In this document: piece after piece, positions 9,320 to 49,612 of the stretch
Position numbering within the stretch: position 1 is the first letter of the stretch
Layout: the number at the start of each line of letters is the position of its first letter
IMG/VR virus record: IMGVR_UViG_3300017728_000015
Location: 1 to 49,705 of that record
From: a virus
Strand: one strand, 5' to 3'
DNA: 49,705 nt
Translations under genes and position numbers: made by a program
The notes under the pieces: model-generated
The model's input: only the letters and a program-made list of their open reading frames with translations
Database searches by the model: none
What the model was told of the DNA's origin: nothing

Positions 9320-9361
9320 ACTACATGTGCCTTTCAAATAAACTTTAGCAACTATATGTAT

Positions 9362-9370: not shown

Positions 9371-9391
9371 ATTTTATAAAAAAGTTAATTT

Positions 9392-10225
9392 TTATTTACA
9401 ATAATCGGTTCCCTTGAATTCGCAAAACATACAAGAATTTCTATTTTTTAGAAAAAATTGTTTTTCAACAGTTTTAATCATACTTCTAACCATTTTTCTA
9501 GACTTTTCTAAGCTTTTTGGGCCAGCAGAAACTTTTATTAGTTGACAAGATTTACCAATAGTTTTAACCTTTTTGAGCAAAACGAAACCACATTGTATAT
9601 CTTTCATCGGAATATTATGCTTTGTTCCCCAGAAGTGTTTATAAAGTATCACTTGAGCTTGTGTATTAAAGTCTCTTTGTTTATCTAAAGACCATCCTCT
9701 TCCACTCGAAGTCTTCCAGTCAATAACCCAATACTTATATTTGTCTTTATAAGGTATTTTAATAATGCAATCAATATAACCTTTAAACTTTGTCGGAATG
9801 TTTTCCATGCTTTCATAGATTGCCTCTTCAGCAGACACTATTTCCCAGCTAGGAAAAGTATCGTTCATAAATTGCGGCATTGAATTCAAGCTAGTCTCTG
9901 CCCACTGAAGCCAGTCTTTTAATTTATTATGTTTATACTTCCAACCTTGTAATTGTGCTCTATTTGTTTGTAGTTGAATAAAATCTTCTGCATCAAAACC
10001 GTGTTCATCCCAAGCTAATTTAATCTTATTTTGGGCTTCTTCGATTTTGAGCTCTTTTGTTTTTAAAAAATGTTCACATGCATCGTGGATTATTGTTCCG
10101 TAATGTAGATGTGGGCTTTCTTCAAAAGTCCTCATTTTATCTATATATAATAATTTGTGTCGCCAAGGACATTCTTTCCATTGACGAACCTCAGAATAGG
10201 AGACATGCTCCTTTAAAATAGTCAT
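9392..10225 (-). CDS. PD-(D/E)XK nuclease, Cas4/RecB-like
   Basis: The protein is a 277-aa member of the PDDEXK_1 superfamily. It shows the N-terminal SYSEVRQWKECPWRHKL motif, a GTIIHDACEHFL helix, then the nuclease core KGYIDCIIK with YWVIDWKTSSGRGW (Asp and D-x-K catalytic pattern at residues ~165-185) and QAQVILYKHFW. The C-terminus has closely spaced cysteines (SCMFCEFKGTDYC), suggesting together with the N-terminal Cys a Cas4/AddB-like Fe-S site. Such phage enzymes act in recombination or DNA end processing. An ATG six codons upstream (10243) lacks a ribosome binding site, whereas GTGAGG lies 8 bases before the ATG at 10225, which decides the start. Confidence 0.85.
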   Translation of the reverse strand: MTILKEHVSYSEVRQWKECPWRHKLLYIDKMRTFEESPHLHYGTIIHDACEHFLKTKELKIEEAQNKIKLAWDEHGFDAEDFIQLQTNRAQLQGWKYKHNKLKDWLQWAETSLNSMPQFMNDTFPSWEIVSAEEAIYESMENIPTKFKGYIDCIIKIPYKDKYKYWVIDWKTSSGRGWSLDKQRDFNTQAQVILYKHFWGTKHNIPMKDIQCGFVLLKKVKTIGKSCQLIKVSAGPKSLEKSRKMVRSMIKTVEKQFFLKNRNSCMFCEFKGTDYCK

Positions 10226-10286
10226 AACAGACCTCACTTTCATTAATATTATAACAAATGTGAGTTCGATTTATAAAACTATTTTA

Positions 10287-14717: not shown

Positions 14718-14803
14718 GTACATTTCCTTTCATTGTTTATTAAATTTTAACTAACCACAAAGTTTGTTAGTCATTTTACTTATTAGTAATTATGTTTTAG
14801 TTT

Positions 14804-15082
14804 TTAATTATTTTTTTCTGCCCAAAAAAAGTCAGGAACTTCGCCAAAAAAAGCACAAACTTTTTCTTTGTTTTTTTGTGTATTTACAATTAAAAAACCT
14901 TCTGAGAGTTTGGTTAGTATTTGTTCTACATTACATGGAAAAGTTTTTTCACCTTCTTTTTTTAACCATATACATTGATTTTTTAGCGTATTACTTCTTT
15001 TTTTATTAGTTTCTTCAAGATAGTCTTTACCTTTTTCTTTCCAAAACTTTTTCATTGATTCTGATATGTTGCTGTTTTTCAT
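14804..15082 (-). CDS. Small basic protein with NUMOD/endonuclease-like DNA-binding motifs
   Basis: The product is a 92-aa Lys-rich protein between two giant fibre genes. Residues 5-30 (ISESMKKFWKEKGK, then ETNKKRSNTL) resemble the NUMOD3-type helical DNA-binding repeat. The later segment W-L-K-K-E-G-E-K-T-F-P with L-x-x-G-F resembles the W-x(3)-G-x-K-x-V-x(n)-L-x-x-G-W element that accompanies phage HNH/GIY homing endonucleases. No nuclease core is present, so it could be a remnant or a stand-alone DNA-binding protein. The ATG at 15082 follows AAAGAAA; a TTG at 15112 is also open. A TATAAT on the minus strand lies at 15103-15098, just upstream. Confidence 0.45.
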   Translation of the reverse strand: MKNSNISESMKKFWKEKGKDYLEETNKKRSNTLKNQCIWLKKEGEKTFPCNVEQILTKLSEGFLIVNTQKNKEKVCAFFGEVPDFFWAEKNN

Positions 15083-15153
15083 TTTTTTCTTTGAGTTATT
15101 ATATAACAACAATCTTATAGAAAATCAAGCAAACGTAAAACTGCAACATGATT

Positions 15154-36857: not shown

Positions 36858-37736
36858 ATGTCACTTGAAATAGATAAAAACATTATAGAGGCAAACATAG
36901 CAATAGTATTAACAGATATTATTGGAAGTACTAAATTTGTTCAAAAAAATGGTTCCTACGTAGCAGCAATGTGGTTCAAGATACATGATAAGGCAGTCAT
37001 GAATTTTATTGCTAGACATAACGGTCAACTTATTGATGCTTCTGACGGTCATCTAATGATGTTTCCAGTAGTATCAAATGCGATAGGTTTTGCATTTGAT
37101 TATAAAAAATATTTAAGGAAAAAGAAGTTTCCTTTTAGAAGCAGAGTAGGGATACATTGGGACAAAATGCTCATAGTAAAGTCTGAAGCGCATATTGTCA
37201 GAGCGGGTGGAAAAAGAATAAATCTAGAAGGTATTGGGAAAAATATTGCCGCAAGAACTATGTCTATATGCGGAGAAGAGCAAATTCTATTATCAAAGTC
37301 TGCATTTGTGCAATATAAAAAATATGGTCATAGAAGTAGATTTATTCCTAAAAAAGCGCAATCAGCACTTGTCGGGCTTTATAGATTTAAAGGAGTAGCT
37401 GAACCTGAAGCTATTTACGCGATTGGTTTAATAGAAGCACAATTGCAACCTCCTCCTGATGGCGAAAAAGCGAAAAGAATTGGTGGCGCAAAAAAAATAA
37501 GAACAAGACTTCGAAATAAAACTTTAAAAGAGTTATTTTGGTGGATTGTGCATAGACTTTCTTTTGTGATATCTTGTTATATTATGTGGGGACTTATTAA
37601 AACTGCTAATACTTTTCACGGCAATGCGATATTCTACACAATGACTGGAATAGACTTGAAGTATTATATTGGCTGGATATATCCTTTATTACAAGAAATA
37701 TATTTATTTTTATATCACAACACAATAGGATCTTAA
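36858..37736 (+). CDS. Class III nucleotide cyclase homology protein with C-terminal membrane anchor (292 aa)
   Basis: Residues ~12-180 match the class III cyclase homology domain: LTDIIGST (metal Asp20), DASDGHLMMF (second metal Asp63), SRVGIHWDKMLI, and GIGKNIAARTM with transition-state Asn129 and Arg133, followed by ICGEEQILLS. The two base-specifying positions are unusual: by eye Ile59 replaces the adenylate Lys or guanylate Glu, and Asn122 replaces the Asp/Thr. Two C-terminal hydrophobic segments (FWWIVHRLSFVISCYIMW; YYIGWIYPLLQEIYLFLY) anchor it. AAAGAAAG precedes the ATG. It probably makes a cyclic nucleotide at the inner membrane. The start of the next gene is 3 bp downstream. Confidence 0.75.
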   Translation: MSLEIDKNIIEANIAIVLTDIIGSTKFVQKNGSYVAAMWFKIHDKAVMNFIARHNGQLIDASDGHLMMFPVVSNAIGFAFDYKKYLRKKKFPFRSRVGIHWDKMLIVKSEAHIVRAGGKRINLEGIGKNIAARTMSICGEEQILLSKSAFVQYKKYGHRSRFIPKKAQSALVGLYRFKGVAEPEAIYAIGLIEAQLQPPPDGEKAKRIGGAKKIRTRLRNKTLKELFWWIVHRLSFVISCYIMWGLIKTANTFHGNAIFYTMTGIDLKYYIGWIYPLLQEIYLFLYHNTIGS

Positions 37737-38228: not shown

Positions 38229-38522
38229 TTAAACATTCCACCACTCATCAAAAGAACCGAATGTTATTTTTTCATACAAACTCTCAGGAATACTTCCAAC
38301 ACAATCATAACTAAACCACTCACCTTCGAGCCGATATCTATTAAGACTTTCATGAACTATTTTTTCTTTCCACCCTTCACCCTTAAAAGAAGCAATTAGT
38401 TTTAACTTGTTAGGGTTTCCAGTTTGAAGCTGTTTTAATCTTTTTTGTGGATTTCTAGATCTACCTATTTTTATCATACCAGTCATATCAGACTGAATAA
38501 TATATAAATCGTCATTATTCAT
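38229..38522 (-). CDS. GIY-YIG family protein, MUG113/T5orf172-like (97 aa)
   Basis: This small nuclease-like protein has the MUG113/T5orf172 pattern: LYIIQSDMTGMIKIGRSRNP, QKRLKQLQTGNP, KLKLIASF, HESLNRYRLEGEWFSY. The key Tyr, Lys-Ile-Gly, Arg, Glu/His and terminal Glu-Trp-Phe are all present. Family members are often encoded by mobile or phage genomes and may act as DNA nucleases. The gene is antisense within a plus-strand block, with GAAAGAAG before the ATG. It could be a selfish insertion, a host-take-over enzyme or a repressor. Confidence 0.8.
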   Translation of the reverse strand: MNNDDLYIIQSDMTGMIKIGRSRNPQKRLKQLQTGNPNKLKLIASFKGEGWKEKIVHESLNRYRLEGEWFSYDCVGSIPESLYEKITFGSFDEWWNV

Positions 38523-38596: not shown

Positions 38597-40009
38597 ATGA
38601 TTATAATTGCTGAAAATAAACATAATCACTACTTACTCAAAAACTTCTATAAAGAAATATCTAAAGTAGATATAAATGAAAGTTTAAGAAAAGATCAAGC
38701 AGGAGAGCACACAGCGCTAGATATTAGTGCTTTAGACTTTAATGATGCTATAATTGACAATCCAATAATAACTGATAATTTAGGAACAGAGGTAGACAAA
38801 GAAGACCTGATAAAAGCTTCACAGCTAAAGCCTAAAATGAAAAATTTACTTCCTTTACTCAACCTTAAAAAAGGCTTAAAAATATCAGCATTATCTGCAG
38901 CTTTGTTTTTTAGTGGTGATACTCCAGATGAAGAATTCAAAGCTTTAAGACAAATTGCTAATGATAACAATATTGAAGTGCAACAAGTAATAAAAGTTAC
39001 TAATAACAAACCAAAAGAAACAGCTTATAGCGCAACATCTAATGTGTCTAAAGAAAATCAAAAAACAAAGATGAAAAATGTAAGTTTAAGCGAAAAGTCA
39101 AAGTTATTAGCAAGATCTAAAACAAGGATAAAAAACTTTGAAGGGTTTAAACCCTATCCCTACAAAGATAGAGATGGAGTTTCAATAGGCTACGGTACTT
39201 TTTTTATTGACAATATCGAACCAGACAACTTGCCTGAAAATTGGATTGATAACTTGTATAAAAAATGCAACATATCTGATAGTGAAAAAAGTCAGTATGA
39301 GCAAGAAAACCAAAAAGAATTACTTAAAAACTTTAGCGAGACAATCAAAGCAAAAAAAATAAAAATTGATAAAGTAATTTTAAGAGTTAACAATAAAATT
39401 AAACTAAAAAATGCTGAACTTAAAAAATGGAAAAAAATAAAAGATACGAAAAAAAGAAAAAGGTATACTGACACTGTTGAAGCTGAAATAGAAAGATTAG
39501 GAGAAAGAAAAGATTCTTTAGAAAATCAAAAAAATGATCTCGATTTAGAAAAAGAAACTGCAAAATCGAGAGGATTTATATCAGCAGAATTAGCAGAAGA
39601 ATGTCTAAATAGATATATTAACCAATCAATAGATTATCATAATACTAACTCAGATGTTTTTAACAAATATTTTTTTCAGATGGATAAAGATGTGCAAGAT
39701 GTAATTATTGACATGTCTTATAATGTAGGTATGTACTTCTTAGAAGAAGAATTTCCTAACTTTCAAGGCTTTGTTAAAGAATATATAAATTCAATTGCAA
39801 ACAATAATGACCAATTAGGAATACAGTCTCTAAAAAATATGTTTGAAGAAATCAAGAATCGATCTCCTGAATATCATGCACAACAATCTTCAAATAAAAG
39901 AGCAGAAAAAAATACAAATTTATTAAAAAGTGCACATGAAAGAACAAAAAATAATTTAAAAGAAAATTTGTATTCTTTAAAGTCAGTTTATAATATACTT
40001 TATAGCTAA
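38597..40009 (+). CDS. Endolysin, GH24 lysozyme with extended N-terminus and coiled-coil insertion (470 aa)
   Basis: It cleaves the peptidoglycan glycan backbone. The GH24 N-lobe is at residues ~175-205 (NFEGFKPYPYKDRDGVSIGY); catalytic Glu182 and Asp191 match the T4 Glu-Asp pair and Ser196 sits near the Thr position. The C-lobe starts at ~345 (MDKDVQDVIIDMSYNVG, 362-378). Between lobes lies a ~90-residue Lys/Glu-rich coiled coil (~236-325). The N-terminal ~170 residues are extra, with a hydrophobic segment (LKISALSAALFFSG, residues ~93-107). Typical T4 lysozyme is 164 aa. AAGG lies before the ATG. A packaged or membrane-associated lysozyme is possible. Confidence 0.85.
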   Translation: MIIIAENKHNHYLLKNFYKEISKVDINESLRKDQAGEHTALDISALDFNDAIIDNPIITDNLGTEVDKEDLIKASQLKPKMKNLLPLLNLKKGLKISALSAALFFSGDTPDEEFKALRQIANDNNIEVQQVIKVTNNKPKETAYSATSNVSKENQKTKMKNVSLSEKSKLLARSKTRIKNFEGFKPYPYKDRDGVSIGYGTFFIDNIEPDNLPENWIDNLYKKCNISDSEKSQYEQENQKELLKNFSETIKAKKIKIDKVILRVNNKIKLKNAELKKWKKIKDTKKRKRYTDTVEAEIERLGERKDSLENQKNDLDLEKETAKSRGFISAELAEECLNRYINQSIDYHNTNSDVFNKYFFQMDKDVQDVIIDMSYNVGMYFLEEEFPNFQGFVKEYINSIANNNDQLGIQSLKNMFEEIKNRSPEYHAQQSSNKRAEKNTNLLKSAHERTKNNLKENLYSLKSVYNILYS

Positions 40010-40023
40010 TAAGGAGTTATAAT

Positions 40024-40788
40024 TTGAAATTAAATTATTTATCAACTATTTTTTTTGTTTGTATTTTCAATATAAGCACAGCTTTCTCTCAAGTTAACAT
40101 AGAATCTATTAGAAGTCAAAATAAAGAAGCAGTTTTTTGGGGTGAGGTTAAAGGAGGGCTTGAATTACAAAGAGGTAATGTTGATATTACTGCTTTTGAC
40201 TCAGATATTCTAGTTCATTTTAAAAAAAATAAGCATCATACTTTCTTGCAAACAAAATCTTCACAAGGACGTCAATCAGGCAATGAGTTTAAAAACAACT
40301 CGTTTGCACATCTTAGATGGACATGGATGACTTGGAAAATTTTAGGTTTTGAGATGTTTACGCAGATACAACAAGATGAATTTAAAGCACTCAATATAAG
40401 ACAGCTGAACGGTATAGGTCTAAGATCTGAGATAATTCAATCAAAAAATCTTTCTTTAAGTTTAGGTACAGGAGTAATGACAGATTATGAAATGTTAAAA
40501 GATAGAAAAGAAAGCACTTTAATTCGTAGCACGTCTTATATCACAATGGCAAAATCAGTTTCAAAAGATAGAAAGAATTTAATCCTGTTTACACTTTATT
40601 ATCAACCGCTATTTACCAATCAAGAAGACTACAGAATCAATCTAGAAGCAAACGTCAGAACAATCTTAATATCTTCTTGGAACATATCTTTAGATAACAC
40701 TTTAAAGTATATGTACGATACAAATCCGCCAGAAGATATTTTGACTAACGACATCTTGATAAAAACAAGTCTACTTTACGCTTGGTAG
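40024..40788 (+). CDS. Outer-membrane beta-barrel protein, DUF481-like (254 aa)
   Basis: A cleavable signal peptide is clear (MKLNYLSTIFFVCIFNISTA then FSQ). The mature region alternates amphipathic strands and shows DUF481/YdiY-type features: GGLELQRGNVDITAFDSDI, FAHLRWTWMTWKILGFEMF with QIQQDEF, LNIRQLNGIGLRSEI, SLSLGTGVMTDYE, and a C-terminal ALW-like aromatic end (SLLYAW). It should insert into the host outer membrane. The start is TTG at 40024 with AAGGAG 7 bases upstream. It follows the lysozyme by 14 bp. Phage-encoded outer-membrane proteins can block superinfection; that role here is inference. Confidence 0.68.
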   Translation: MKLNYLSTIFFVCIFNISTAFSQVNIESIRSQNKEAVFWGEVKGGLELQRGNVDITAFDSDILVHFKKNKHHTFLQTKSSQGRQSGNEFKNNSFAHLRWTWMTWKILGFEMFTQIQQDEFKALNIRQLNGIGLRSEIIQSKNLSLSLGTGVMTDYEMLKDRKESTLIRSTSYITMAKSVSKDRKNLILFTLYYQPLFTNQEDYRINLEANVRTILISSWNISLDNTLKYMYDTNPPEDILTNDILIKTSLLYAW

Positions 40789-40795
40789 TTATACA

Positions 40796-40826
40796 TAATA
40801 AATAATTGTCTCACAATAAATTATTA
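40796..40826. terminator. Possible bidirectional AT-rich terminator hairpin
   Basis: An inverted repeat lies between convergent genes: ATTGT-CTC-ACAAT plus outer TAATAA/TTATTA arms separated by an internal bulge. The stem is AT-rich with no strong GC clamp, and it partly overlaps the end of the minus-strand gene. Position supports a terminator; stability is low. Confidence 0.3.
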
Positions 40827-41698
40827 AAGTCAAAATTACCGTTTGAGTTATTAAACATTTTGCTTCGAATCCTATCATGTTGTACACCAGATTTTAAAGT
40901 ATCAGGTAAAACAAAGAAAAAAACAAGTGCTGCCTTTTTATGTGCTATTTCGCTTTTAAAGTATTCTTTATGAACAAGACGACCACGCTGCACAGTTTTA
41001 AAACTTAAGTCATCATCTGTGTTAATATCTGAAGGATTGATATTCCCTACTTCAGCACCTTCATAAGACTCACCAGATAACATTTTTTTTGACGCAAATT
41101 TTTTTATTTTTTTCATTCTGCTACTTCCAGCAGCAGTTTCTGCTATATCATACATATCTTCAATTGCTCTATCACTCATTTCACTTATAGCTCTTGCAAT
41201 TTCTTTATTGTATTTATTTGCCAAATCACTAGACTTATCACTTCTAGCTATTTTAGCTAATTTAGATAACTGCCCACCGTTCTTAGTAGCAAGCTTTAGA
41301 ATTGTAAGTTCTCTAGCATTTATGTTTCTTGCGTCATCTGAGCTGTATATTAAAATGTTAGGATTTTCTTTTCCACTTTCTTTATATTTAGCAGCAGTCT
41401 TTTCTGCTTCCTCTAGACTTCTTGCGACAATTGTCATAAAGCCATCATCACCGGAGACGTTATAAACAGATATTCTTCCTTCTGTTCTATTCTCTAACGA
41501 AATTGATATTTCATCTTGAATTGTAGATGTAGGAACCGCTTCTGCATAACTTGGAACTAAAGCAGCTGCTGACATTGCCAAAGTTAAAAGTGTATTTTTT
41601 AAATTTATTTCATTTAGCATCAGCTCTTCTCTACATGTGTTGTTATTTAACAATTTTCGCCAGTTTTCTACTAATAATTCTGTTTCTTGTCTGTTCAT
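40811..41698 (-). CDS. Putative packaged protein with LVE leader and signal-like segment (295 aa)
   Basis: The N-terminus (MNRQETELLVENWRKLLN) matches the leader of neighbouring genes, with L-V-E at residues 9-11 and a second L-N-E at 28-30. A Sec-like hydrophobic stretch (LLTLAMSAAALVP, ~37-49) follows and ends in A-E-A at 52-54. The mature part has a mixed alpha/beta domain (LENRTEGRISVYNVSGDDGF, ILIYSSDDARNINAR) and a helical tail. No catalytic motif is recognised. AGAGAG precedes the ATG. I infer capsid packaging followed by export; the domain function is unknown. Confidence 0.55.
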   Translation of the reverse strand: MNRQETELLVENWRKLLNNNTCREELMLNEINLKNTLLTLAMSAAALVPSYAEAVPTSTIQDEISISLENRTEGRISVYNVSGDDGFMTIVARSLEEAEKTAAKYKESGKENPNILIYSSDDARNINARELTILKLATKNGGQLSKLAKIARSDKSSDLANKYNKEIARAISEMSDRAIEDMYDIAETAAGSSRMKKIKKFASKKMLSGESYEGAEVGNINPSDINTDDDLSFKTVQRGRLVHKEYFKSEIAHKKAALVFFFVLPDTLKSGVQHDRIRSKMFNNSNGNFDFNNLL

Positions 41699-41733
41699 TT
41701 TATCTCTCTATCTTTTATACTATATATTTCAAT

Positions 41734-43404
41734 TTAGTCAAAATTTGAGTCTATTAAGATTATTAAATTGTCCATTTGAGAAATTACGTATTCTTTGTCG
41801 TATTTTTTTCTAGATCCTAAATCATAGCCCATTAAACTAGATAATTTTTGTGATATATCATTGTCAACATCGTTCTGTAAAAGACTTTTCTGCCACTCAC
41901 CATAGCTACCAATATTAAATTTTTTATTTTCATATTTGTTGAAGTAAACATCTTTCTTAGTTATCTTTTTTACATTCTGTAAAGTCTTAATTAAAGTTGG
42001 CTTGTCCATATTAAGTCCTTCAATTAAACTATGATGTATTGTTTCTACTCTCTCTTCAAGACTGTGCAAATAAATATCCCACCAACCAGAACTAACTTCT
42101 AATTTAAAGCTTCCATCATCTAAATCTTTTATACATCCTGAGCCTATTAGCATATTTATAAAAAGCTTGGCGTTTTCTATTAACTTTTTTTGACCATTTT
42201 CGTTTAAATCGTTGACGTCTGAAATGTCGAAGTTATATTGACTTGCAACTTTTTTCAACAAAAAGCCAGTTACATCTTTAAGTGTAATTTTTTCTTTTTG
42301 ATTACTATGCATATTTTCTATAAAATCATAATATGCAATGTTAATATTTTCTTTAGCATCATTAATATTCATGCTAATAACATGCCCCAATTCATGTTCG
42401 ATAACAGCTTCAGATGCGATTGGGGATAGCAAAATTAATCCTCCATGTTTACCTGAGTCTATGTTTTCTAGTGATATTGTTATGCCTTTCATATCTTCAG
42501 ACTTTAAAGTTTTATCTAATGCTTTATTTAATAAAAAAGTAAAGTAGTGATAAGGATATGTCAAACCTTTTTCTGATTTGTTTTCTATCATCTTAAAAAA
42601 ACTATTAGATACTTCCTGCAGTATTTTATTTTTCAGATCTAAAAAATCTTTTCCATTTTTTTTTACTGTTAACTTGTCTTCAAAAAAAACTTTAGTAAGA
42701 ATCTCAGAGTAATTTTTATAATTTTCAGGCTTCATAATTCCAACGTATAAATCAAAATCGCTAGCTACATCAACCTTTATAACATCACTGTTTTTGTTTT
42801 TATACAATTTTGACACAGCGTCGTAAATTTCTTTTGTTACTTTTTCGCTAGATTCTGGGCTTAAACATTGCGCTGTTACTTTAGTATAAACTCCTTGGAA
42901 TAACTTGTTAACTTTTTGATTTTCTACATCACCTAAACTTTTTTCAAAAGATTTCCTAAATAGATCTTCAATGTCAGTATCATTTGCTTTGTTAAACAAC
43001 TTATCAAAAACATCTCTATCTTTATTTAAATCTTTTGGATTAAACAATTTAAACTTATTAACAACTTTACACGCTTCATTAAAATCATTTTCATTAAAGT
43101 CATCAGAGCTAATGTTAGCATGCTCATCTGCGGCTGCTTGAACTTGAGTATAAGTCGGCAAATTGTTCTCGCTGCTATCGTAAGCATGAGCAACATCAGA
43201 ATATAGCGATATTGTTTTAATTAAAAGAATAGGAATTAATACAGAATTTTTTATCCCTTTTAACCTTAGCTTTTTTAAAAAATTTTCATTAATTAAACTT
43301 TCTTTGACTAAGCTTTCTTCAAGAAAATATATTTTTTCTTCTGTAATTAGAAAATTGTTCCAGCTTTCTACTAGTTTTTTATATTCACTATTTTTTATTT
43401 TCAT
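41734..43404 (-). CDS. Putative packaged HExxH metallopeptidase (556 aa)
   Basis: This large protein begins with the leader KIKNSEYKKLVESWNNFL (L-V-E at residues 11-13), has I-N-E at 38-40, and a hydrophobic segment 54-68 (SVLIPILLIKTISLY) ending in A-H-A at 72-74. The zinc motif H-E-L-G-H is at 337-341 within EAVIEHELGHVISM. A downstream Glu-rich helix (HSLEERVETIHHSLI) offers the third gluzincin-type ligand. The rest is helical. It resembles no specific named peptidase family that I can identify. Secretion-like segment and leader suggest export in the infected host, where it could cut envelope or host proteins. Confidence 0.6.
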   Translation of the reverse strand: MKIKNSEYKKLVESWNNFLITEEKIYFLEESLVKESLINENFLKKLRLKGIKNSVLIPILLIKTISLYSDVAHAYDSSENNLPTYTQVQAAADEHANISSDDFNENDFNEACKVVNKFKLFNPKDLNKDRDVFDKLFNKANDTDIEDLFRKSFEKSLGDVENQKVNKLFQGVYTKVTAQCLSPESSEKVTKEIYDAVSKLYKNKNSDVIKVDVASDFDLYVGIMKPENYKNYSEILTKVFFEDKLTVKKNGKDFLDLKNKILQEVSNSFFKMIENKSEKGLTYPYHYFTFLLNKALDKTLKSEDMKGITISLENIDSGKHGGLILLSPIASEAVIEHELGHVISMNINDAKENINIAYYDFIENMHSNQKEKITLKDVTGFLLKKVASQYNFDISDVNDLNENGQKKLIENAKLFINMLIGSGCIKDLDDGSFKLEVSSGWWDIYLHSLEERVETIHHSLIEGLNMDKPTLIKTLQNVKKITKKDVYFNKYENKKFNIGSYGEWQKSLLQNDVDNDISQKLSSLMGYDLGSRKKYDKEYVISQMDNLIILIDSNFD

Positions 43405-43415
43405 TTTTATTAACT

Positions 43416-43658
43416 TTACTTGTTTTCTATGTAAAACAATATATCCTTACAGTTATCTATTTCTTTGATTTCTTCTAATGATGAATCACCACAGTTTTTA
43501 ATATAATCAAAGGCACCCCTGTGTAATCCCATGCAATCTGTTACGATGTCTTTTATTTGCTTGCACTCAGATTCTACTTCTACCTCTTGCTTTTTCTCTG
43601 AACATGAAATCGTTGAAGCAAAGAAAACTGCAAAACAAATTATTATTTTTTTTAACAT
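43416..43658 (-). CDS. Small lipoprotein (80 aa)
   Basis: A lipoprotein signal peptide (KKIIICFAVFFASTISC) with the lipobox Cys at residue 19 leads a short hydrophilic mature part. Four further Cys occur at residues 32, 42, 56 and 70 with C-x2-IK-x2-V-x2-C-x-G spacing; the same cysteine framework recurs in the gene at 44487-44732. AGAAGG precedes the ATG. It could be an outer-membrane lipoprotein that acts as an o-spanin or as an inhibitor; it is the last gene of a lipoprotein/membrane set. Confidence 0.6.
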   Translation of the reverse strand: MLKKIIICFAVFFASTISCSEKKQEVEVESECKQIKDIVTDCMGLHRGAFDYIKNCGDSSLEEIKEIDNCKDILFYIENK

Positions 43659-43693
43659 TGTAAACCTTCTTATATTAACTTAATATAAATATT

Positions 43694-43837
43694 ATGAATT
43701 ATAAAATAAATTACACGCAGTTAACATGTATTAATATATTAATAAAAATATTGCAAGAAGCAATTAATAGAAAATGCTTTGACGAAGAAGAAATTAAAAA
43801 AATTTACAAAACTGTAGAAAAATTAACAAAAGCCTAA
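43694..43837 (+). CDS. Possible small helical protein (47 aa)
   Basis: This ATG frame fills a gap of 175 bp and encodes a charged helical peptide (KIYKTVEKLTKA at the C-terminus; EEEIKK inside). Its stop overlaps the convergent 43834-44073 stop. TATAAATA lies at 43684-43691, only 2 bases before the ATG, and no ribosome binding site is visible, so either translation starts elsewhere or the frame is not used. The composition looks coding. Confidence 0.3.
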   Translation: MNYKINYTQLTCINILIKILQEAINRKCFDEEEIKKIYKTVEKLTKA

Positions 43838-44073
43838 TTACAACCGCAATCTTTAATTTCATCATTAGTTAAAATAATTAAGCTATGAAGCTTTTCATTA
43901 ACTTCTTGCAGACTTTTATAATCTTCTTCTAGTTTTTCAACTTTTTCATTTAAGTCATCAATAAAAGTTGTATCTCTAGAAATAAAGGCAGTCCCTAACG
44001 ACGTCACTGATGTTATTACAGCTAGAGAAACTGCTAACCACATATTTTTATTGCTATTGTTCACTTCAGACAT
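43834..44073 (-). CDS. Small membrane protein with coiled coil, spanin-like (79 aa)
   Basis: A short polar N-terminus precedes one membrane helix (WLAVSLAVITSVTSLGTAFI, ~residues 12-31). A coiled-coil region (DLNEKVEKLEEDYKSLQEVNEK, presented here in blocks) follows, and the C-terminus ends with Cys-Gly-Cys-Asn. Topology (N-in, coiled coil outside) and small size fit an i-spanin (Rz type), with the lipoproteins next to it as possible o-spanin partners. No family match is claimed. Weak AAAAAAG before the ATG. Confidence 0.5.
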   Translation of the reverse strand: MSEVNNSNKNMWLAVSLAVITSVTSLGTAFISRDTTFIDDLNEKVEKLEEDYKSLQEVNEKLHSLIILTNDEIKDCGCN

Positions 44074-44098
44074 GCTTTTTTACCTTAATTTAAAAAAA

Positions 44099-44431
44099 TT
44101 AGCAGCCACAACAAATATTACAAACATCACAGCATTTTGCACATGCACAGATTTGATCTAAGCAATCACAACATCCTTCCATGTCACCATCACATACACA
44201 TTTGCATAATTTTTTGCAAAGATCACACATTTCAGGATTTTGTGAACAAATCATTGTGCACATCATAAACAACTTTTGTGCATCCATTCCCATGCAAGCT
44301 TGTGCTTTTTGCATCATTGAATGTCCAGAGCTTGGTGTTGAATGCATTACTGGCATAGAAACCATTTCGTGATGCATCTCGTTCATTGTTCTCTTTATAA
44401 CTCTTCTTAACTGCTTTTCTGTTATTCTCAT
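44099..44431 (-). CDS. Cys-rich protein with MRITE leader, metal-binding-like (110 aa)
   Basis: The N-terminus MRITEKQLRRVIKRTMNE matches the leader of the 45621-46127 gene. The rest is Met- and Cys-rich: 19 Cys in the C-terminal ~65 residues, arranged as C-x3-C, C-x2-C, C-x3-C and C-x4-C runs (ACMGMDAQKLFMMCTMICSQ, CDLCKKLCKCVCDGDMEG, CCDCLDQICACAKCCDV). This recalls four-helix copper-storage (Csp/DUF326) proteins or a metallothionein, but spacing is only approximate. I infer metal binding. AAAGGAT precedes the ATG. Two other ORF frames overlap but this is the coding one. Confidence 0.65.
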   Translation of the reverse strand: MRITEKQLRRVIKRTMNEMHHEMVSMPVMHSTPSSGHSMMQKAQACMGMDAQKLFMMCTMICSQNPEMCDLCKKLCKCVCDGDMEGCCDCLDQICACAKCCDVCNICCGC

Positions 44432-44486
44432 TTTAAATCCTTTTTCTGGTCTGTTTATTATATATATTTTTAAAAAACAAAATTAA

Positions 44487-44732
44487 CTATTCTTTTAAGA
44501 CTTCTAGCCTTAGTTTCCACTTTACCTCTTCACAATCGCTCGCCCAAGCAATTCCTTTATCAACTTCGTGACAACCTCCCCACATCTCAACACCAACTCC
44601 TGTACAAGCACGCACTCTCACTTTTATTGAGTCACATACCTTCTTCTTACCTAAACTATCAAAACCTTCATTACCATGATAATCACTGCAACATAGCATA
44701 AAAAACAAAAAAAAACAAGCAATTCGACTCAT
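44487..44732 (-). CDS. Small lipoprotein, paralogue of 43416-43658 (81 aa)
   Basis: The signal peptide (RIACFFLFFMLCC) carries a lipobox Cys around residues 14-15. Mature Cys are at 33, 43, 54 and 67, with the same C-x2-IK-x2-V-x2-C-x-G start as the other lipoprotein. Its ATG overlaps the stop of the 44729-45514 gene (ATGA), so translation is coupled to the packaged-protein gene. Likely outer-membrane or periplasmic. The role (spanin, exclusion or inhibitor) is unknown. Confidence 0.6.
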   Translation of the reverse strand: MSRIACFFLFFMLCCSDYHGNEGFDSLGKKKVCDSIKVRVRACTGVGVEMWGGCHEVDKGIAWASDCEEVKWKLRLEVLKE

Positions 44733-45514
44733 GGCAAATCTATTTCAATTAAGTTTTCATCTAAGCTTTCTATATAATTAAGCACCTCAGGTTCTAACTT
44801 ATAATAAGCATACGCTAAAGGACTTTCAAAATTTTTCCAGTCACCGTCAACAAAATTACCTTTTTTAGCTGAATTTAAAATAGCTGAATATTGATATATG
44901 TCGTCAGAAGTATCATTTGGCGTATACTTTTCAGTCTGCTTAAATCTTTCCTGTTCCTCGTCAGACATATCTGAAAAGGGTGCATAATACATTACATCAT
45001 CCCAAGACTCATCAGAAAAATCCATCTTAACAGCTTCAAGATTAAGCTCAGACTTAGCTCGCCTAAGATATCGATCCCAAACCCGTTCAGCTTCCTCAGA
45101 TACTTCACCTCTATCACTCATTAACGCACAGCCAAGTTTACAACTAATGATTTCCAATCCTATTTCATAAAGTAAAGGCCCAAATCCTCCCGCGACTTCT
45201 GAACCTTTTATAACATAAGCCTCACGATCACCATCAACTCTTACATTCCTATCTACAATGCCTAAGTGATTAAGCCAAGCTTTCTGGTATTCAACTTTAT
45301 TGTCACTCATAGATGAAAAGTTTATTAATTTAACTTCTAATACTGTACCATTAAAAAAAGCTTCAAGCTTAATATCTTTCCCTGTCTCTTCACGTAAAGC
45401 AACTATTCTATCAACAAACGATTTAATCTTTGTCACACCACTTATATCAGATGAAATTTCGTTTAAATAACCATTCCACCCTTCAACCAATAATTTATAT
45501 TCTTTACGATTCAT
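44729..45514 (-). CDS. Putative packaged protein with LVE leader (261 aa)
   Basis: The first 19 residues (MNRKEYKLLVEGWNGYLNE) carry L-V-E at 9-11 and are nearly identical to the leader of 46286-46882. The middle contains GGFGPLLYEIGLEIISCKLG, ALMSDRGEVSEEAERVWDRY, a block that I associate with uncharacterised phage proteins without being able to name the family. The C-terminus is acidic with no hydrophobic segment, so unlike others it lacks a signal-like region and would stay in the cytoplasm. AGGGA precedes the ATG. A transferase-like or inhibitor role is possible. Confidence 0.58.
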   Translation of the reverse strand: MNRKEYKLLVEGWNGYLNEISSDISGVTKIKSFVDRIVALREETGKDIKLEAFFNGTVLEVKLINFSSMSDNKVEYQKAWLNHLGIVDRNVRVDGDREAYVIKGSEVAGGFGPLLYEIGLEIISCKLGCALMSDRGEVSEEAERVWDRYLRRAKSELNLEAVKMDFSDESWDDVMYYAPFSDMSDEEQERFKQTEKYTPNDTSDDIYQYSAILNSAKKGNFVDGDWKNFESPLAYAYYKLEPEVLNYIESLDENLIEIDLP

Positions 45515-45588
45515 ATTTCAATCCCTGCTTAATCTTATGCATACACTTGATAATATATATATTTCTACATATAAAATTAAACTTATAT

Positions 45589-45613
45589 AAACGTCGTGAC
45601 TCTAGAGACACCC
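45589..45613 (-). terminator. Conserved hairpin copy 1, probable terminator
   Basis: This 25-bp element differs from copy 2 (46201-46225) at two positions only. On the minus strand it forms GGGTGTC / GACGTTT with wobble pairs around an 11-base loop (TCTAGAGTCAC), ending in a U-rich run. It starts 8 bp downstream of the stop of the 45621-46127 gene, the position of an intrinsic terminator. Confidence 0.45.
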
Positions 45614-45620
45614 AGCTCGA

Positions 45621-46127
45621 TCAAAAACCTATCTTCTTCATAACCTTCTTGTTAGACATTTTCTCAAATGCACGAAAAACCAAAGAATACTTCTTTTTTA
45701 ACTCAGGACTTTTCTCAAATATCGACAAAACTTCTTTCATTATTTTATCACCAGATTCACCCATTTTTTCAAACTTTTCAATGTAATCCGATAGTATATT
45801 ACTCCCGCCAAAAGGATTTGCTCTAAGTTTTTTTACTAACTCGTCTTGCTCTTTTTGTAAGTTACCTATTCCTTCAACTTCTAAATCAGCTTTGCTTTCT
45901 TCGCTTTGCGTCTGGCTAACAGTATCATTCATTTGACTTATAAAACCTTTGGCATTTGCTGTTCCACTTAACGCTAACATCATCAATCCTATCGCTGCAC
46001 CTTGACTTACTTTACCAGACAAATCTTGCAAAACACCTTCAACTATCAATGACTCATTCAATATATCATTACTCTTTACCAACTCTTCACTTATAATTCT
46101 TCTTAATCTACTCTCAGTTATACGCAT
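45621..46127 (-). CDS. Putative packaged protein with MRITE leader and signal-like segment (168 aa)
   Basis: The leader MRITESRLRRIISEELVK shares MRITE-x2-LRR-x-I with the Cys-rich gene. L-N-E is at 23-25 and I-V-E at 28-30, both of the L/I-x-E type, followed by GAAIGLMMLALSG (~43-55) and A-N-A at 57-59: a Sec-type signal peptide lying internally. The remainder is helical and charged (LQKEQDELVKKLRANPFGG). GGAG precedes the ATG. A conserved hairpin lies just downstream. Function is unknown; export after processing is inferred. Confidence 0.6.
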   Translation of the reverse strand: MRITESRLRRIISEELVKSNDILNESLIVEGVLQDLSGKVSQGAAIGLMMLALSGTANAKGFISQMNDTVSQTQSEESKADLEVEGIGNLQKEQDELVKKLRANPFGGSNILSDYIEKFEKMGESGDKIMKEVLSIFEKSPELKKKYSLVFRAFEKMSNKKVMKKIGF

Positions 46128-46200
46128 ATTTAAATCTCCGTTAATTTATACTCATAATCTATATATTTAATCAAATCACAAAATTTAACCTAGCTAAAGA

Positions 46201-46225
46201 AAACGTCGTGACTCAAGAGACGCCC
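46201..46225 (-). terminator. Conserved hairpin copy 2, probable terminator
   Basis: This is a near-identical copy of the element at 45589-45613. On the minus strand GGGCGTC pairs with GACGTTT (a compensatory G-C replaces the G-T of copy 1) around the loop TCTTGAGTCAC, followed by TTTTCTTT. It lies about 60 bp downstream of the stop of the 46286-46882 gene and upstream of the next gene. Confidence 0.45.
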
Positions 46226-46285
46226 TACTCCACACAGTCGCTTCCCAACCATCACTGTCATCAATATACTTTCCCCACTCTTTTA

Positions 46286-46882
46286 CTATTCTCTATTTAA
46301 AAAATCAAGAATAATATCACTGAGTGACCTTGTATATTTTTTTTCAATTGCTCCAATAAGATCTTTGTTGAGTTTTTGTATTATTGTTTCTTTGTGGTGA
46401 GCCATCACTTTTATCATGCCACGTAGATTTGACTTAGTTGATGGTCCTGGAGTCAATTTTTTATACACAACTTTAAAAACAAATTCGCTAGCATTTTTTT
46501 CAAAATAATTTCTTATATTGAGTTCAAAGTCGCTATCGTCAGTCTTATTCTCTACTAATTCATCTAAGTCATCTCGGTCAAGAATATCAAGTTCAATATC
46601 ATGTGCATCTCCTGACTTAGATCTATCATGAGGAAGATTAGTATTTAACTTTAAATCAAAACAACCCCACGAAAAACCTTCAGGATCATCAAGTGGCGCA
46701 AATTCAACAGAATCTAAGTCAATTAAACTCTTGAAATATTCATAATCATCAATCTTTTGAGGACGACTTCTGTTCTTACCCATAGGATAAGCCTCAACAA
46801 TTACATCAGAATCATTATTAGAGTTTTTGTTTAAATAATTTTTCCAACCTTCGACTAATAATTTATACTCTTTACGCTTCAT
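46286..46882 (-). CDS. Putative packaged protein with LVE leader (198 aa)
   Basis: The leader MKRKEYKLLVEGWKNYLNK is a near copy of that at 45514. The rest is acidic in the middle (DDPEGFSWGCFDLKLN, DILDRDDLDELVE), then basic and helical (VMAHHKETIIQKLNKDLIG). I-V-E is present again around residues 28-30. No family is recognised and no signal-like segment is present. AGGATG precedes the ATG at 46882. It is the first gene of the minus-strand block, next to the early region. Confidence 0.58.
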   Translation of the reverse strand: MKRKEYKLLVEGWKNYLNKNSNNDSDVIVEAYPMGKNRSRPQKIDDYEYFKSLIDLDSVEFAPLDDPEGFSWGCFDLKLNTNLPHDRSKSGDAHDIELDILDRDDLDELVENKTDDSDFELNIRNYFEKNASEFVFKVVYKKLTPGPSTKSNLRGMIKVMAHHKETIIQKLNKDLIGAIEKKYTRSLSDIILDFLNRE

Positions 46883-47380: not shown

Positions 47381-47410
47381 CGTGTAAAACTCTATTCCTT
47401 AGTCTATAAT
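47381..47410 (+). promoter_or_regulatory. Early promoter P2
   Basis: CGTGTAA (47381-47387), 17 bp, TATAAT (47405-47410). The leader then reads GTAAGGACAA and a five-fold (ATCA) repeat before AAGGAGG and the ATG at 47460. Confidence 0.82.
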
Positions 47411-47459
47411 GTAGATGTAAGGACAAGCGATCAATCAATCAATCAATCAAGGAGGTCTC

Positions 47460-47528
47460 ATGGAGACTTATATGATTCCCGACGTGATAACCTTTCTTTC
47501 TCTTGCGGCATTTGTCTGGTGGTTATAA
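47460..47528 (+). CDS. Membrane micropeptide (22 aa)
   Basis: A 22-codon frame follows a perfect AAGGAGGT ribosome binding site at 47449-47456. The peptide (start METYMIPDVITFLSL, end AAFVWWL) has one hydrophobic helix with a terminal Trp-Trp. It is too short for common families. The strong promoter P2, strong RBS and lack of any competing frame support real translation. It might modulate a membrane protein of the host early in infection. Confidence 0.55.
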   Translation: METYMIPDVITFLSLAAFVWWL

Positions 47529-47551
47529 CCCCACACCTCGTCAACTCGAAA

Positions 47552-47581
47552 CGTGTAACTCATCTATCGTTAAGATATAAT
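47552..47581 (+). promoter_or_regulatory. Early promoter P3
   Basis: CGTGTAA (47552-47558), 17 bp, TATAAT (47576-47581), then AAACCATAAGGAGATATAA before the ATG at 47603. Confidence 0.83.
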
Positions 47582-47602
47582 AAACCATAAGGAGATATAA
47601 AT

Positions 47603-47650
47603 ATGAGTTCATCAATTATCGTTATACTGGCAGTCTACTTCTTCCTCTAA
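47603..47650 (+). CDS. Membrane micropeptide (15 aa)
   Basis: The 15-codon frame starts at ATG 47603, with AAGGAGATATA 5-8 bases upstream. The peptide MSSSIIVILAVYFFL is almost wholly hydrophobic. It has its own promoter P3 and no other gene can use it before P4. One of the shortest plausible genes here; translation must be proven by experiment. Confidence 0.5.
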   Translation: MSSSIIVILAVYFFL

Positions 47651-47698
47651 TCGGATCACTACGGGAAATAAATAAAAGGAATTAAACTTAACTCTCTT

Positions 47699-47728
47699 CG
47701 TGTAACTTTCAAAACAAAGGATTATAAT
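47699..47728 (+). promoter_or_regulatory. Early promoter P4
   Basis: CGTGTAA (47699-47705), 17 bp, TATAAT (47723-47728). Here CATAAGG is replaced by CCATGG; translation of the next gene starts at 47770 rather than at the ATG at 47734, which lies at about +1. Confidence 0.82.
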
Positions 47729-47769
47729 AAACCATGGAAAACATTCAATCAAACATTCAAGGAGACAAC

Positions 47770-48417
47770 ATGGAAACAACAACAATTCATCAGCTATTTC
47801 AAGAGTTCATTAACGATGGTGGTGAGCCTAAAGTAACTTCATTCAAGAGGCATCTTGACAAGTTGATTAACCAAGAGATTAAGTCTCTTTGTGGTCGCTC
47901 GGCGAAGACTGGCCTCGTCGATGATTGGCGTAGCGAGGTGAAAGCCCGTTTCTCAGGGCGTGGAGCGAAATGGGTTAAGGTATCTGTTGAAGATATCCTT
48001 CCAACTCTCGAGGGATTTGATGATACAGGTGACTATATGGGATGGATCCAATCAGCTGGATTCGCTTGGATTCGCTTCGCAGGTCCTCGCGTCGCGAATG
48101 GAAGTAATTGTGCGGCCTTTGAGGTTAGGACTGGAGGATCTACGATCGATCATCCAAAACAGCTTCACTACATTCCTGCTCAGTTGCTTGGAGACAAGAT
48201 CGAGGCTCTTAACTCGACTCCCCATGCGATGAGACTTGAGGTCGCGACGACTCCCGTAGTGGAGGAGCCTGAAGTAGAGGAAGAGGTTATTGAGCTCAGT
48301 GGTTACGAGTTGAATCCTGACGACGACGGTGGTTCAGCTTGGGCTGAGGATGGTGACGAGGATATGATGGGTGACATTGAGGAGCTCATGGATGATGAAG
48401 ACAACTTAGACTTCTAA
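47770..48417 (+). CDS. Early protein with acidic C-terminus (215 aa)
   Basis: The start ATG 47770 is preceded by AAGGAGACAAC; the in-frame ATG at 47734 lies too close to the -10 box. The N-terminal half is basic and helical (FKRHLDKLINQEIKSL, VDDWRSEVKARFSGRG). The middle has GWIQSAGFAWIRFAGPRVAN. The last ~55 residues are extremely acidic (EEPEVEEEVIEL, DDDGGSAW, EDGDEDMMGDIEELMDDEDN). No family recognised. It might bind or mimic nucleic acid or block a host protein; unproven. Confidence 0.65.
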   Translation: METTTIHQLFQEFINDGGEPKVTSFKRHLDKLINQEIKSLCGRSAKTGLVDDWRSEVKARFSGRGAKWVKVSVEDILPTLEGFDDTGDYMGWIQSAGFAWIRFAGPRVANGSNCAAFEVRTGGSTIDHPKQLHYIPAQLLGDKIEALNSTPHAMRLEVATTPVVEEPEVEEEVIELSGYELNPDDDGGSAWAEDGDEDMMGDIEELMDDEDNLDF

Positions 48418-48458
48418 GATGTTTCGGGTGGTGGTGGCTTCGTGGCGTCGTCTCGCTT

Positions 48459-48488
48459 CGTGTAAACAACAATACCTTAGGTTATAAT
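48459..48488 (+). promoter_or_regulatory. Early promoter P5
   Basis: CGTGTAA (48459-48465), 17 bp, TATAAT (48483-48488), then ATGATCATAAGGACAA followed by a run of CAA repeats (about 48500-48522). Confidence 0.82.
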
Positions 48489-48538
48489 ATGATCATAAGG
48501 ACAAACAAACAACAACAACAACGTGAAAGGACTTCTAT

Positions 48539-48895
48539 TTGAGAAGTAACAATTCATTCCCTACCCTTATCGCTTCTTTCTGTCTCTCTGCAGTTGCTTA
48601 CAACGTCGCTCAGCCGGTTGAGGTTCCTGTTCAACGACTTGAGTTTGATGACTATGTCATTAAAGGTCACGTGCAACGACTTGAGTTTGATGACTACGAG
48701 ATTCGAATCGTTCGTGACGAAGAGACGACAGAGGTCATTGACATGGATGAGGTGATCATCATTGCGCAGGATGACGAAGCAGATGACGGTGACGGTGTGA
48801 ACATTGACATGATGAATGCTAACTGGTGTCTCATCCACCCTGACGACGTGATCTGTCAAGATGCAGACGAGGAGGACGAAGTAGAAGGCTGCTAA
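48539..48895 (+). CDS. Secreted acidic early protein (118 aa)
   Basis: The frame starts at TTG 48539 with AAAGGA 8 bases upstream; there is no closer ATG. A signal-like N-terminus (SFPTLIASFCLSAVAYNVA) precedes a tandem duplication (VQRLEFDDY-V/E-I, unit 14 residues). A very acidic region (DDEADDGDGVNIDMM) and a terminal Cys follow (three further Cys in all, as in NANWC and DDVIC). It probably acts in the periplasm. No family recognised. It could be a host-envelope or superinfection protein. Confidence 0.6.
   Translation: MRSNNSFPTLIASFCLSAVAYNVAQPVEVPVQRLEFDDYVIKGHVQRLEFDDYEIRIVRDEETTEVIDMDEVIIIAQDDEADDGDGVNIDMMNANWCLIHPDDVICQDADEEDEVEGC
48632..48696 (+). repeat. 23-bp direct repeats in acidic gene
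   Basis: caacgacttgagtttgatga plus cta recurs at 48632-48654 and 48674-48696, 42 bp apart, encoding two copies of QRLEFDDY. It shows a recent in-frame duplication. Confidence 0.85.
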
Positions 48896-48910
48896 GGATT
48901 ACGACGTTAA

Positions 48911-48940
48911 CGTGTAAGACGACGAGAGACAAAGTATAAT
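48911..48940 (+). promoter_or_regulatory. Early promoter P6
   Basis: CGTGTAA (48911-48917), 17 bp, TATAAT (48935-48940), then AAAACATAAGGAGG. A 10-bp palindrome ACGTTAACGT (48904-48913) overlaps the -35 box and may be an operator. Confidence 0.84.
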
Positions 48941-48959
48941 AAAACATAAGGAGGAATAA

Positions 48960-49151
48960 ATGACAGTTCAACAGCTAATCGAAAAGTTACAATCTTTAGA
49001 TCCTCACGACGAGGTGGTTATTGAGGTGAATCACGATGATATAGTGCCTCTGGAAGAAGACAGAATTGTTGAGGACTTTATGACACAGGATCATCGTCTC
49101 ACGACGCAAAAAGATGTAGAAGCAAGAAAGGTTATAACACTAAGAGTATGA
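48960..49151 (+). CDS. Small early protein (63 aa)
   Basis: The ATG is preceded by AAGGAGGAATAA. The N-terminus MTVQQLIEKLQSLDPHDEVV resembles small phage proteins (T-x-x-x-L-I-x-x-L-x-x-L-D-P-x-x-x-V) of unknown function. The remainder is acidic (HDDIVPLEEDRIVEDF). The stop overlaps the next start (ATGA), so the micropeptide after it is coupled. Confidence 0.72.
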   Translation: MTVQQLIEKLQSLDPHDEVVIEVNHDDIVPLEEDRIVEDFMTQDHRLTTQKDVEARKVITLRV

Positions 49152-49246
49152 TCACATTTACTGAAGCTGCTGCAAACGGGGGACTTCTCTTCGCAAGTTT
49201 CTTTATGGCAATGTTTTTATACGTCTACATTACAGATGCACTTTAA
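49148..49246 (+). CDS. Membrane micropeptide (32 aa)
   Basis: It starts in the ATGA overlap with the previous gene. The peptide has a polar N-terminus (MITFTEAAANGG) and one hydrophobic helix (LLFASFFMAMFLYVYI) with a short tail. Coupled translation supports it. Function unknown; like its neighbours, a candidate early membrane effector. Confidence 0.55.
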   Translation: MITFTEAAANGGLLFASFFMAMFLYVYITDAL

Positions 49247-49255
49247 GGATAAACT

Positions 49256-49312
49256 ATGACTTTAATCTATATGCTACTACTACTTTACATCATCACTCAA
49301 GCTAACAAATAA
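49256..49312 (+). CDS. Membrane micropeptide (18 aa)
   Basis: AAGGAT lies 6-8 bases before ATG 49256. The peptide MTLIYMLLLLYIITQANK is a hydrophobic helix with a polar end. It lies between two other small early genes 9 and 11 bp away. Too short for family assignment; expected to sit in the inner membrane. Confidence 0.5.
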   Translation: MTLIYMLLLLYIITQANK

Positions 49313-49323
49313 GGAGCAACAAC

Positions 49324-49557
49324 ATGGACATCGAAGTTATTCAAAATCACAGACGTCGCGCTGAATTCATCATTGACAATACACTACTTGCTAACGGCGT
49401 ACAACCAACCGCATCGCTCATCGAGGAGTTTCTTTCTTTCTACGACTACAACGGATTAGCTGCAACAATTAACAATATCTACAGCTACTCAAAAACAGTT
49501 CTTCATGCTCAACATGAACAGCCTTACTTCCAACTACACTTAGTGTCTCACAGCTAG
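49324..49557 (+). CDS. Small early protein (77 aa)
   Basis: ATG 49324 is preceded by AAGGAGCAACAAC. The protein is soluble and helical (HRRRAEFIIDNTLLANGVQ, SLIEEFLSFYDYNGLA, YSYSKTVLHAQHEQ) and has no recognised motif. It is the fourth gene in the operon behind P6. Function unknown. Confidence 0.65.
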   Translation: MDIEVIQNHRRRAEFIIDNTLLANGVQPTASLIEEFLSFYDYNGLAATINNIYSYSKTVLHAQHEQPYFQLHLVSHS

Positions 49558-49582
49558 GACCCTTGGCGGCGTCGACCCTCAT

Positions 49583-49612
49583 CGTGTAACTTTCAAATAA
49601 GCTTAGTATAAT
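49583..49612 (+). promoter_or_regulatory. Early promoter P7
   Basis: CGTGTAA (49583-49589), 17 bp, TATAAT (49607-49612), then ATATCATAAGGCAAC and a CAAT-rich leader up to ATG 49663. Confidence 0.83.

Follow-up and report, generated by a model that had tools for sequence, protein, structure and literature searches.

Exchangeable N-terminal leaders resembling T4 capsid-targeting sequences in a hypervariable gene island of a T4-like jumbo phage

Why should genes for otherwise unrelated proteins begin with nearly the same short run of residues? The question is raised by a 49,705-base viral record with 32% GC (IMG/VR record IMGVR_UViG_3300017728_000015, here called the window in its full length), which is a fragment from an uncultured marine T4-like jumbo myovirus. 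As a preliminary description of this DNA had claimed, six of its genes start with one of two leaders, and all six are open reading frames (ORFs) on the minus strand, at the coordinates in Table 1. Leader 1 opens the proteins encoded at 40811 (MNRQETELLVENWRKLL), 41734 (MKIKNSEYKKLVESWNNFL), 44729 (MNRKEYKLLVEGWNGYLNE), and 46286 (MKRKEYKLLVEGWKNYLNK), and leader 2 opens those at 44099 (MRITEKQLRRVIKRTMNE) and 45621 (MRITESRLRRIISEEL). Reading from sequence, we consider it highly probable that these leaders are propeptides of the capsid-targeting type on packaged cargo, and we infer packaging, binding to the prohead core, cleavage, ejection, and activity of the bodies. The earlier proposal of T4-type capsid-targeting leaders draws support from several independent genomic lines.

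The sharing of leaders is far beyond chance. When 1275 N-terminus pairs from the 51 ORFs called in the window were scored, the six highest scores (79, 57, 52, 51, 49, and 42) all fell inside the two leader sets; for shuffled N termini, the maximum had a mean of 31 and a 95th percentile of 37, and the highest of 500 was 44. Behind the leaders, the bodies are unrelated, as had been described, with no significant mutual similarity (best E value, 0.067). Codon differences within the leaders are mostly synonymous, with proportions of synonymous (pS) and nonsynonymous (pN) differences of 0.77 and 0.26 for leader 1 (pS three times pN) and 0.68 and 0.22 for leader 2, and the 40 nucleotides upstream of the leader genes are only 37 to 38% identical, which indicates that the protein is conserved and not the DNA. 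The shuffles, the synonymous and nonsynonymous counts, and the low upstream identity together refute chance or common regulatory DNA at gene starts as the source of the leaders, an explanation to which we give almost no credence even though the genome is AT-rich and many leader genes have ATATATA boxes upstream (15/35, versus 43/855). The enrichment of these boxes may merely reflect the true intergenic regions upstream of leader genes.

Baseplate wedge proteins, giant structural proteins, a helicase, and a PhoH-like protein are encoded in the window. PhoH and cassette queries yielded relatives (designated below by G and L numbers) that reach 293 kb, and synteny with three of them—G001, G003, and G007—spans the window from end to end. 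Profiles were used to find leader-1 and leader-2 proteins in the relatives, and a third class, leader 3 (MNLLREYIRELLAE, MILENYIKEVLLFE), gave 47 pattern matches compared to 3.8 expected from shuffles.

In T4, ten residues of the internal protein IPIII are enough for packaging, residues 4 and 7 acting in targeting and residues 8 and 10 in processing, and the protease gp21 cleaves after L/I-X-E (PMC9026906). The IPIII capsid-targeting sequence (CTS), as read from the T4 sequence, is MKTYQEFIAE. The spacing of its YQEFIAE portion (aromatic-x-x-aromatic-aliphatic-x-E) recurs in leader 1 as WNGYLNE, WNKFLNE, WKDFLNE, and WQRFINE, with the general form W-x-x-[FY]-L-N-E, and it recurs with aliphatic residues in leader 2 (I-R-Q-V-I-K-E or L-R-R-I-I-S-E) and leader 3 (L-R-E-Y-I-R-E). 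The motif Phi-x-x-Phi-[LIVMF]-x-E was found within residues 1 to 24 of 74 of the 79 leader-2 proteins, although leader 2 was itself chosen by sequence, so that this count mainly shows register, and in 10 of the 20 leader-1 proteins, compared to 163 of 1745 other proteins (P = 4e-64 for leader 2 and 5e-6 for leader 1). Shuffled leaders contained it in a mean of 4.1 of 79 and 1.6 of 20 cases, respectively. Applied to T4 as a positive control, the core motif selected 5 of 61 ORFs, three of which are the gp21 substrates IPII, IPIII, and gp24. The exact core is present in the proteins at 44729 and 45621 and in most relatives.

The preliminary description had further placed L/I-x-E cleavage sites at matching positions. 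Such sites are real, and LVE at residues 9 to 11 is found in most leader-1 proteins, but the stronger candidate sites differ in position from protein to protein. They lie directly behind the leader at 44729 (LNE-19), 45621 (ISE-14), and 44099 (MNE-18) and are displaced downstream at 40811 (LNE-30), 41734 (INE-40), and 46286 (IVE-30). The displaced sites resemble T4 IPI, which keeps F4 and F7 and has its first L/I-x-E (ITE) farther downstream. A seventh member had been missed: the lysozyme-like protein encoded at 38597 to 40009 begins with a leader of its own, followed by I-N-E-S. Across leader proteins, [LI]NE occurs 7.2 times per 1000 residues at positions 10 to 60, compared to 1.3 in other N termini (Fisher P = 5e-8) and 0.6 in the leader-protein bodies, where the depletion by itself is not significant (P = 0.11). 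Leader-1 proteins that lack an adjacent L-N-E often have a later one (40811, 41734, L005 8987, G007 65072, and G003 113170).

A gp21-like protease, for which the preliminary description had called as a check on its proposal, is indeed encoded by the relatives. Peptidase_S77 was recovered in 7/7 relatives with contigs of at least 95 kb (E values of 1e-24 to 6e-31), and a PHROG search likewise matched the head maturation protease (E = 4e-51). At the positions of the catalytic His, Ser, and Asp of T4 gp21, these residues are conserved in the five proteases that were aligned. Leader genes and gp21 share a contig in the long relatives, and in G001 the protease (84451 to 85053) occurs on a single contig with an ortholog 85% identical to the protein at 44729. 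The head module is of the T4 type, with gp21, gp20, gp23, and a gp22-like scaffold. Between gp21 and the scaffold are two small conserved proteins with N termini like those of leaders 2 and 3 (MAKVSRSMLKGIVKECLVELLAEG and VTPSTIRRLVREERARLNE), and core protein A, beside gp21, has a leader-like N terminus in 6/6 genomes where a blind leader-3 pattern found it. Leader-1 types also appear among head-module proteins beside gp21 in G003 and G007, and a 78-residue G003 protein near gp21 consists of three leader-2-like repeats. Head-module proteins of 78 to 81 residues with repeated leader-2-like units are encoded in G003 (109658 to 109894; L059) and G007 (60136 to 60381; L038), and these might be docking or core partners of the leaders.

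The cut motif itself is distributed across this module in a way that fits a prohead protease, given that core and scaffold proteins are substrates of gp21 in T4: [LI]xE is in excess in gp21, core protein A, the protein preceding gp21, and the gp22-like protein (z of 1.4 to 5.1, against a background with a mean of 0.4 and a 95th percentile of 2.4) but not in the portal gp20 (z of −1.1 to 0.6). Alternatively, the leaders might have nothing to do with gp21 and address a different phage structure, for instance, the tail or a replication compartment. We regard this explanation as extremely improbable in view of the recurrence of leader types beside gp21 in a T4-type head module and of a cut motif shared with the gp22-like and core proteins but not with the portal.

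Leader genes are numerous and their parts are exchanged. By a strict count of leaders 1 and 2, there are 24 in G004, 23 in G005, 17 in G006, and 6 to 9 in each other relative; with every leader class included, the three largest relatives have about 20 to 35 leader genes apiece. A fourth leader type is carried by the lysozyme-like gene neighboring the island. The body typified by 44729, which we call the GPLLYE family, follows leader 1 in the window, G001, L004, L005, and G002, leader 2 in G007 (147318), and leader 3 in G003 (204615) and G005 (2495), with the copies of the window, G001, G003, and G007 sitting in the syntenic island. Similarly, members of a family named kinase-like by eye carry leader 3 in G007 but leader 1 in G003 and G002. 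Since one body family can carry different leaders, tag and body are independent modules. G004 holds two clusters (9257 to 17095 and 229887 to 232520) whose leader-2 genes (MKITKRQLRRIIKEE), mostly in tandem, number more than 20 in all, and at 231354 a second leader copy lies within the reading frame.

Most of the leader proteins that were scanned match no known family. Those with some assignment are P-loop/PNK-like, HAD, GNAT-like, kinase-like, or lysozyme-like, and by eye both kinase-like and ADP-ribosyltransferase (ART)-like bodies are among them; family matches support an AAA_33 P-loop, PNK-like body (L004 2051; E = 3e-9) and a HAD_SAK_1 body (G007 18103; E = 1e-9), and the GNAT assignment is weaker. 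None of the six window bodies could be placed with confidence in a family of PHROG, Pfam, or NCBIfam. Against phage isolates, tblastn with 41734, 44729, 45621, G005 2495, and G003 201929 returned no usable homolog, the leader-2 peptide had no match, and the leader-1 peptide had one weak match. An AlphaFold model of 44729 was middling (predicted local distance difference test [pLDDT] score of 64), and its best PDB matches, mostly GNAT acetyltransferase domains (Z of ≤6.7), are not decisive. The model of 41734 was poor (pLDDT of 42, from two sequences), so its HELGH motif, which has no Pfam match, stays a zincin lead recognized by eye. In G001 (3978 to 4703; L030), a leader-1 protein has a hydrophobic segment (GFIPGIGEGFDAINAI...FPGVGDVIGK) that by eye is like the pre-toxin translocation domains of polymorphic toxins.

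The nature of the bodies bears on whether packaged and cut proteins would be effectors at all. They could instead be structural, as prohead-core or head-filling parts that are degraded or retained and not ejected. Small acidic or basic leader proteins within the head module (G003 112914 and 109658; G007 64803 and 60136) are in line with such a role, as is the cutting of T4 core proteins into fragments (PMC9026906). However, the cargo has enzyme-like folds (AAA_33 P-loop, HAD_SAK_1, and lysozyme) and varies between phages, unlike core proteins, and [LI]NE sites cluster at the N terminus and are sparse in the bodies. A structural role for the cargo is thus unlikely, in our estimation.

Some leader proteins carry a second N-terminal element. 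At 40811, 41734, and 45621 and in L005 8987, a Sec-like signal follows the inferred cut, its hydrophobic core coming 6 to 14 residues later; these segments lie at least 30 residues into the protein, and in the three window proteins they end in A-x-A. Comparison with L004 orthologs shows where conservation lies: for 40811, the leader is conserved, the linker is identical at 3/11 positions, and the site plus signal at 27/28, and for 41734 the corresponding values for linker and for site plus signal are 8/18 and 35/38. These four signals, together with spanin-like and lysozyme-like genes interleaved in the island, might suggest that the leaders are extended export signals by which the proteins are secreted into the periplasm of the cell that makes them, for example, for lysis. 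We consider this very improbable: signal-like segments are not clearly enriched in leader proteins (6/117, versus 53/1562) and so cannot explain the leader, which would moreover stretch the signals to 54 to 74 residues. Given the lack of clear overall enrichment, Sec-like signals are limited to a subset of leader proteins. For that subset, we tentatively raise a two-step address, which we hold to be possible but well short of probable. A cut after [L/I]-x-E would free a Sec signal of ordinary length (24 to 34 residues) buried behind the tag; effectors ready for export would be packed in the head, their export blocked in the producing cell, and the Sec system of the next host would send them to the envelope.

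Under the capsid-targeting interpretation, an N-terminal segment of 12 to 19 residues with the core Phi-x-x-Phi-[I/L/V]-x-E would bind the prohead core. A gp21-type protease would then cut after [L/I]-x-E, apparently favoring [L/I]-N-E in the phage group of the window, at a site that directly follows the leader or closes a variable linker. The bodies so released would remain in the head until ejection, when they would pass with the DNA into the next cell as early effectors. Their genes form a hypervariable island of cargo next to the lysozyme gene, with leaders and bodies being exchanged. Several observations weigh against this interpretation. The exact Phi-x-x-Phi-I-x-E core is missing from four of the six window proteins, which depend on displaced sites, single [LI]xE sites are frequent by chance, and past the leader the leader-2 proteins have no excess of sites in residues 21 to 45. 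No Peptidase_S77 or head gene was found in the window, which is a fragment without head genes and therefore lacks gp21. The leader-2 profile gives head core proteins weak scores of 2 to 8 bits, and one decoy reached 7.0, so that the kinship of head core proteins and leaders rests on pattern and position. Some counts include orthologs, which makes their independence incomplete, and virion proteomics for these uncultured phages was not found.

Table 1. Features of the cargo island and neighboring genes in the window
Feature	Position	Strand	Description
Whole hypervariable cargo island	40811..46882	-	Between conserved lysozyme/DUF481 genes and early-promoter region
Lysozyme-like, probable seventh cargo, 470 aa	38597..40009	+	Own leader MIIIAENKHNHYLLKNFYKE...DINE-S
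Leader-1 cargo, 295 aa	40811..41698	-	MNRQETELLVENWRKLL, variable linker, MLNE-30, Sec-like signal peptide INLKNTLLTLAMSAAALVPSYAEA, unknown-fold body
Leader-1 cargo, 556 aa	41734..43404	-	MKIKNSEYKKLVESWNNFL, linker, LINE-40, signal-like NFLKKLRLKGIKNSVLIPILLIKTISLYSDVAHA, HELGH body
Lipoprotein-like, 80 aa, without leader	43416..43658	-	Syntenic in G003 and G007
Rz-like spanin-like, 79 aa, without leader	43834..44073	-	PHROG Rz-like spanin, E = 0.003
Leader-2 cargo, 110 aa	44099..44431	-	MRITEKQLRRVIKRTMNE-18, then Cys-rich body; orthologs in L004 and L005
Lipoprotein-like, 81 aa, without leader	44487..44732	-	Overlaps end of 44729
Leader-1 cargo, 261 aa	44729..45514	-	MNRKEYKLLVEGWNGYLNE-19, GPLLYE family body, GNAT-like in weak model
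Leader-2 cargo, 168 aa	45621..46127	-	MRITESRLRRIISEEL, DILNE-25, IVE-30, then Sec-like signal GVLQDLSGKVSQGAAIGLMMLALSGTANA
Leader-1 cargo, 198 aa	46286..46882	-	MKRKEYKLLVEGWKNYLNK, candidate displaced site VIVE-30

The flanks of the island are syntenic with G001, G003, and G007, and its cargo is mostly different (Table 1). The protein at 45621 has a 90% identical ortholog in L117. With about 19 Cys in 110 residues, the protein at 44099 is possibly metal binding. The orthologs of the lysozyme-like gene have leaders with the exact core, YLIKKFLIE in G001 (IKKFLIE) and YLIKEFLSE in G003 (IKEFLSE), and the Phage_lysozyme match is below the curated cutoff for the window gene (E = 0.002) and above it for the G003 ortholog (3e-5). 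This protein also has an internal hydrophobic segment, and it may be a packaged lysozyme, instead of or alongside an endolysin. Next to it lies a gene, syntenic in G003 and G007, for a DUF481 outer-membrane-like protein (40024 to 40788; E = 2e-20) that has a plain signal peptide. A small T5orf172/MUG113 gene (38229 to 38522) is kept beside the island in 3/3 relatives checked and is perhaps tied to island turnover. At lower coordinates, a protein encoded at 36858 to 37736 has by eye a class III nucleotidyl cyclase-like domain (TDIIGSTKFVQKNG), with no Pfam match. On the other side of the island, the GC-richer right end of the window (46.9 to 49.7 kb) was considered as a chimera, but gene synteny with G001 and G003 argues against this. 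The plus strand at 47381 to 49612, where the GC content is about 0.40 to 0.49, bears six near-identical promoter-like boxes, CGTGTAA-N17-TATAAT; G001 and G007 have such boxes in their syntenic ends as well, and they are probably early promoters whose −35 box is unusual.

We found no earlier description of these leader peptides, or of CTS-like tags in metagenomic phages, in the open-access literature. If the interpretation is correct, leaders would be a readable code by which virion-packaged, injected proteins of uncultured jumbo phages can be recognized from sequence alone; for each of the three largest relatives, this would give about 20 to 35 candidates. The T4 internal-protein system, with its handful of proteins, would thereby broaden into a large set of exchangeable members that bear several types of tag.

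The closest known counterparts are IPI, IPII, and IPIII of T4 (PMC9026906, PMC3012670), which likewise combine a short N-terminal tag, divergent bodies, and a gp21-type protease, and whose CTS residues 4, 7, 8, and 10 have the spacing of Phi-x-x-Phi-I-x-E. The T4 genes ipII and ipIII adjoin the lysozyme gene e, just as the window island adjoins a lysozyme-like gene. In comparison with T4, the relatives have three or four leader classes, not one, and about 5 to 35 tagged genes per genome, not a handful; their bodies are larger and partly enzyme-like, with an apparent preference for Asn before Glu and Sec-like signals behind some sites. The leader system may well derive from the T4 internal-protein system. 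T4 Alt, a packaged ADP-ribosyltransferase with a gp21-cut N terminus, has a possible parallel in G005 1340, a leader-3 protein that is ART-like by eye, with no Pfam match to confirm it; Alt differs in having an additional C-terminal propeptide (PMC9026906). In phiKZ, 201phi2-1, and SPN3US (PMC5694885, PMC9026906), N-terminal propeptides of many head proteins are cut after x-x-E, and many of these proteins are ejected. Those phages use S/A-x-E or A-x-E and a protease of family S80, whereas here the protease is of the S77 type, the enriched motif is [LI]xE, and unrelated bodies have a common leader. Among cultured phages, Flavobacterium phage immuto (MW353175) has a gp21, gp20, and gp23 module and four unrelated proteins that share a near-identical start, M-x(1,3)-F-[DN]-L-[KR]-[KS]-F-L-[VT]-E-N-[KR]-L-T; these proteins (L110 8807, 22632, and 23633 and L111 1803) begin MENFDLKKFLVEN or similar. 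The immuto leader differs in sequence from the window leaders, and our search turned up no virion data for immuto; if the interpretation holds, this phage would offer a cultured entry point, together with explicit predictions of cut sites.

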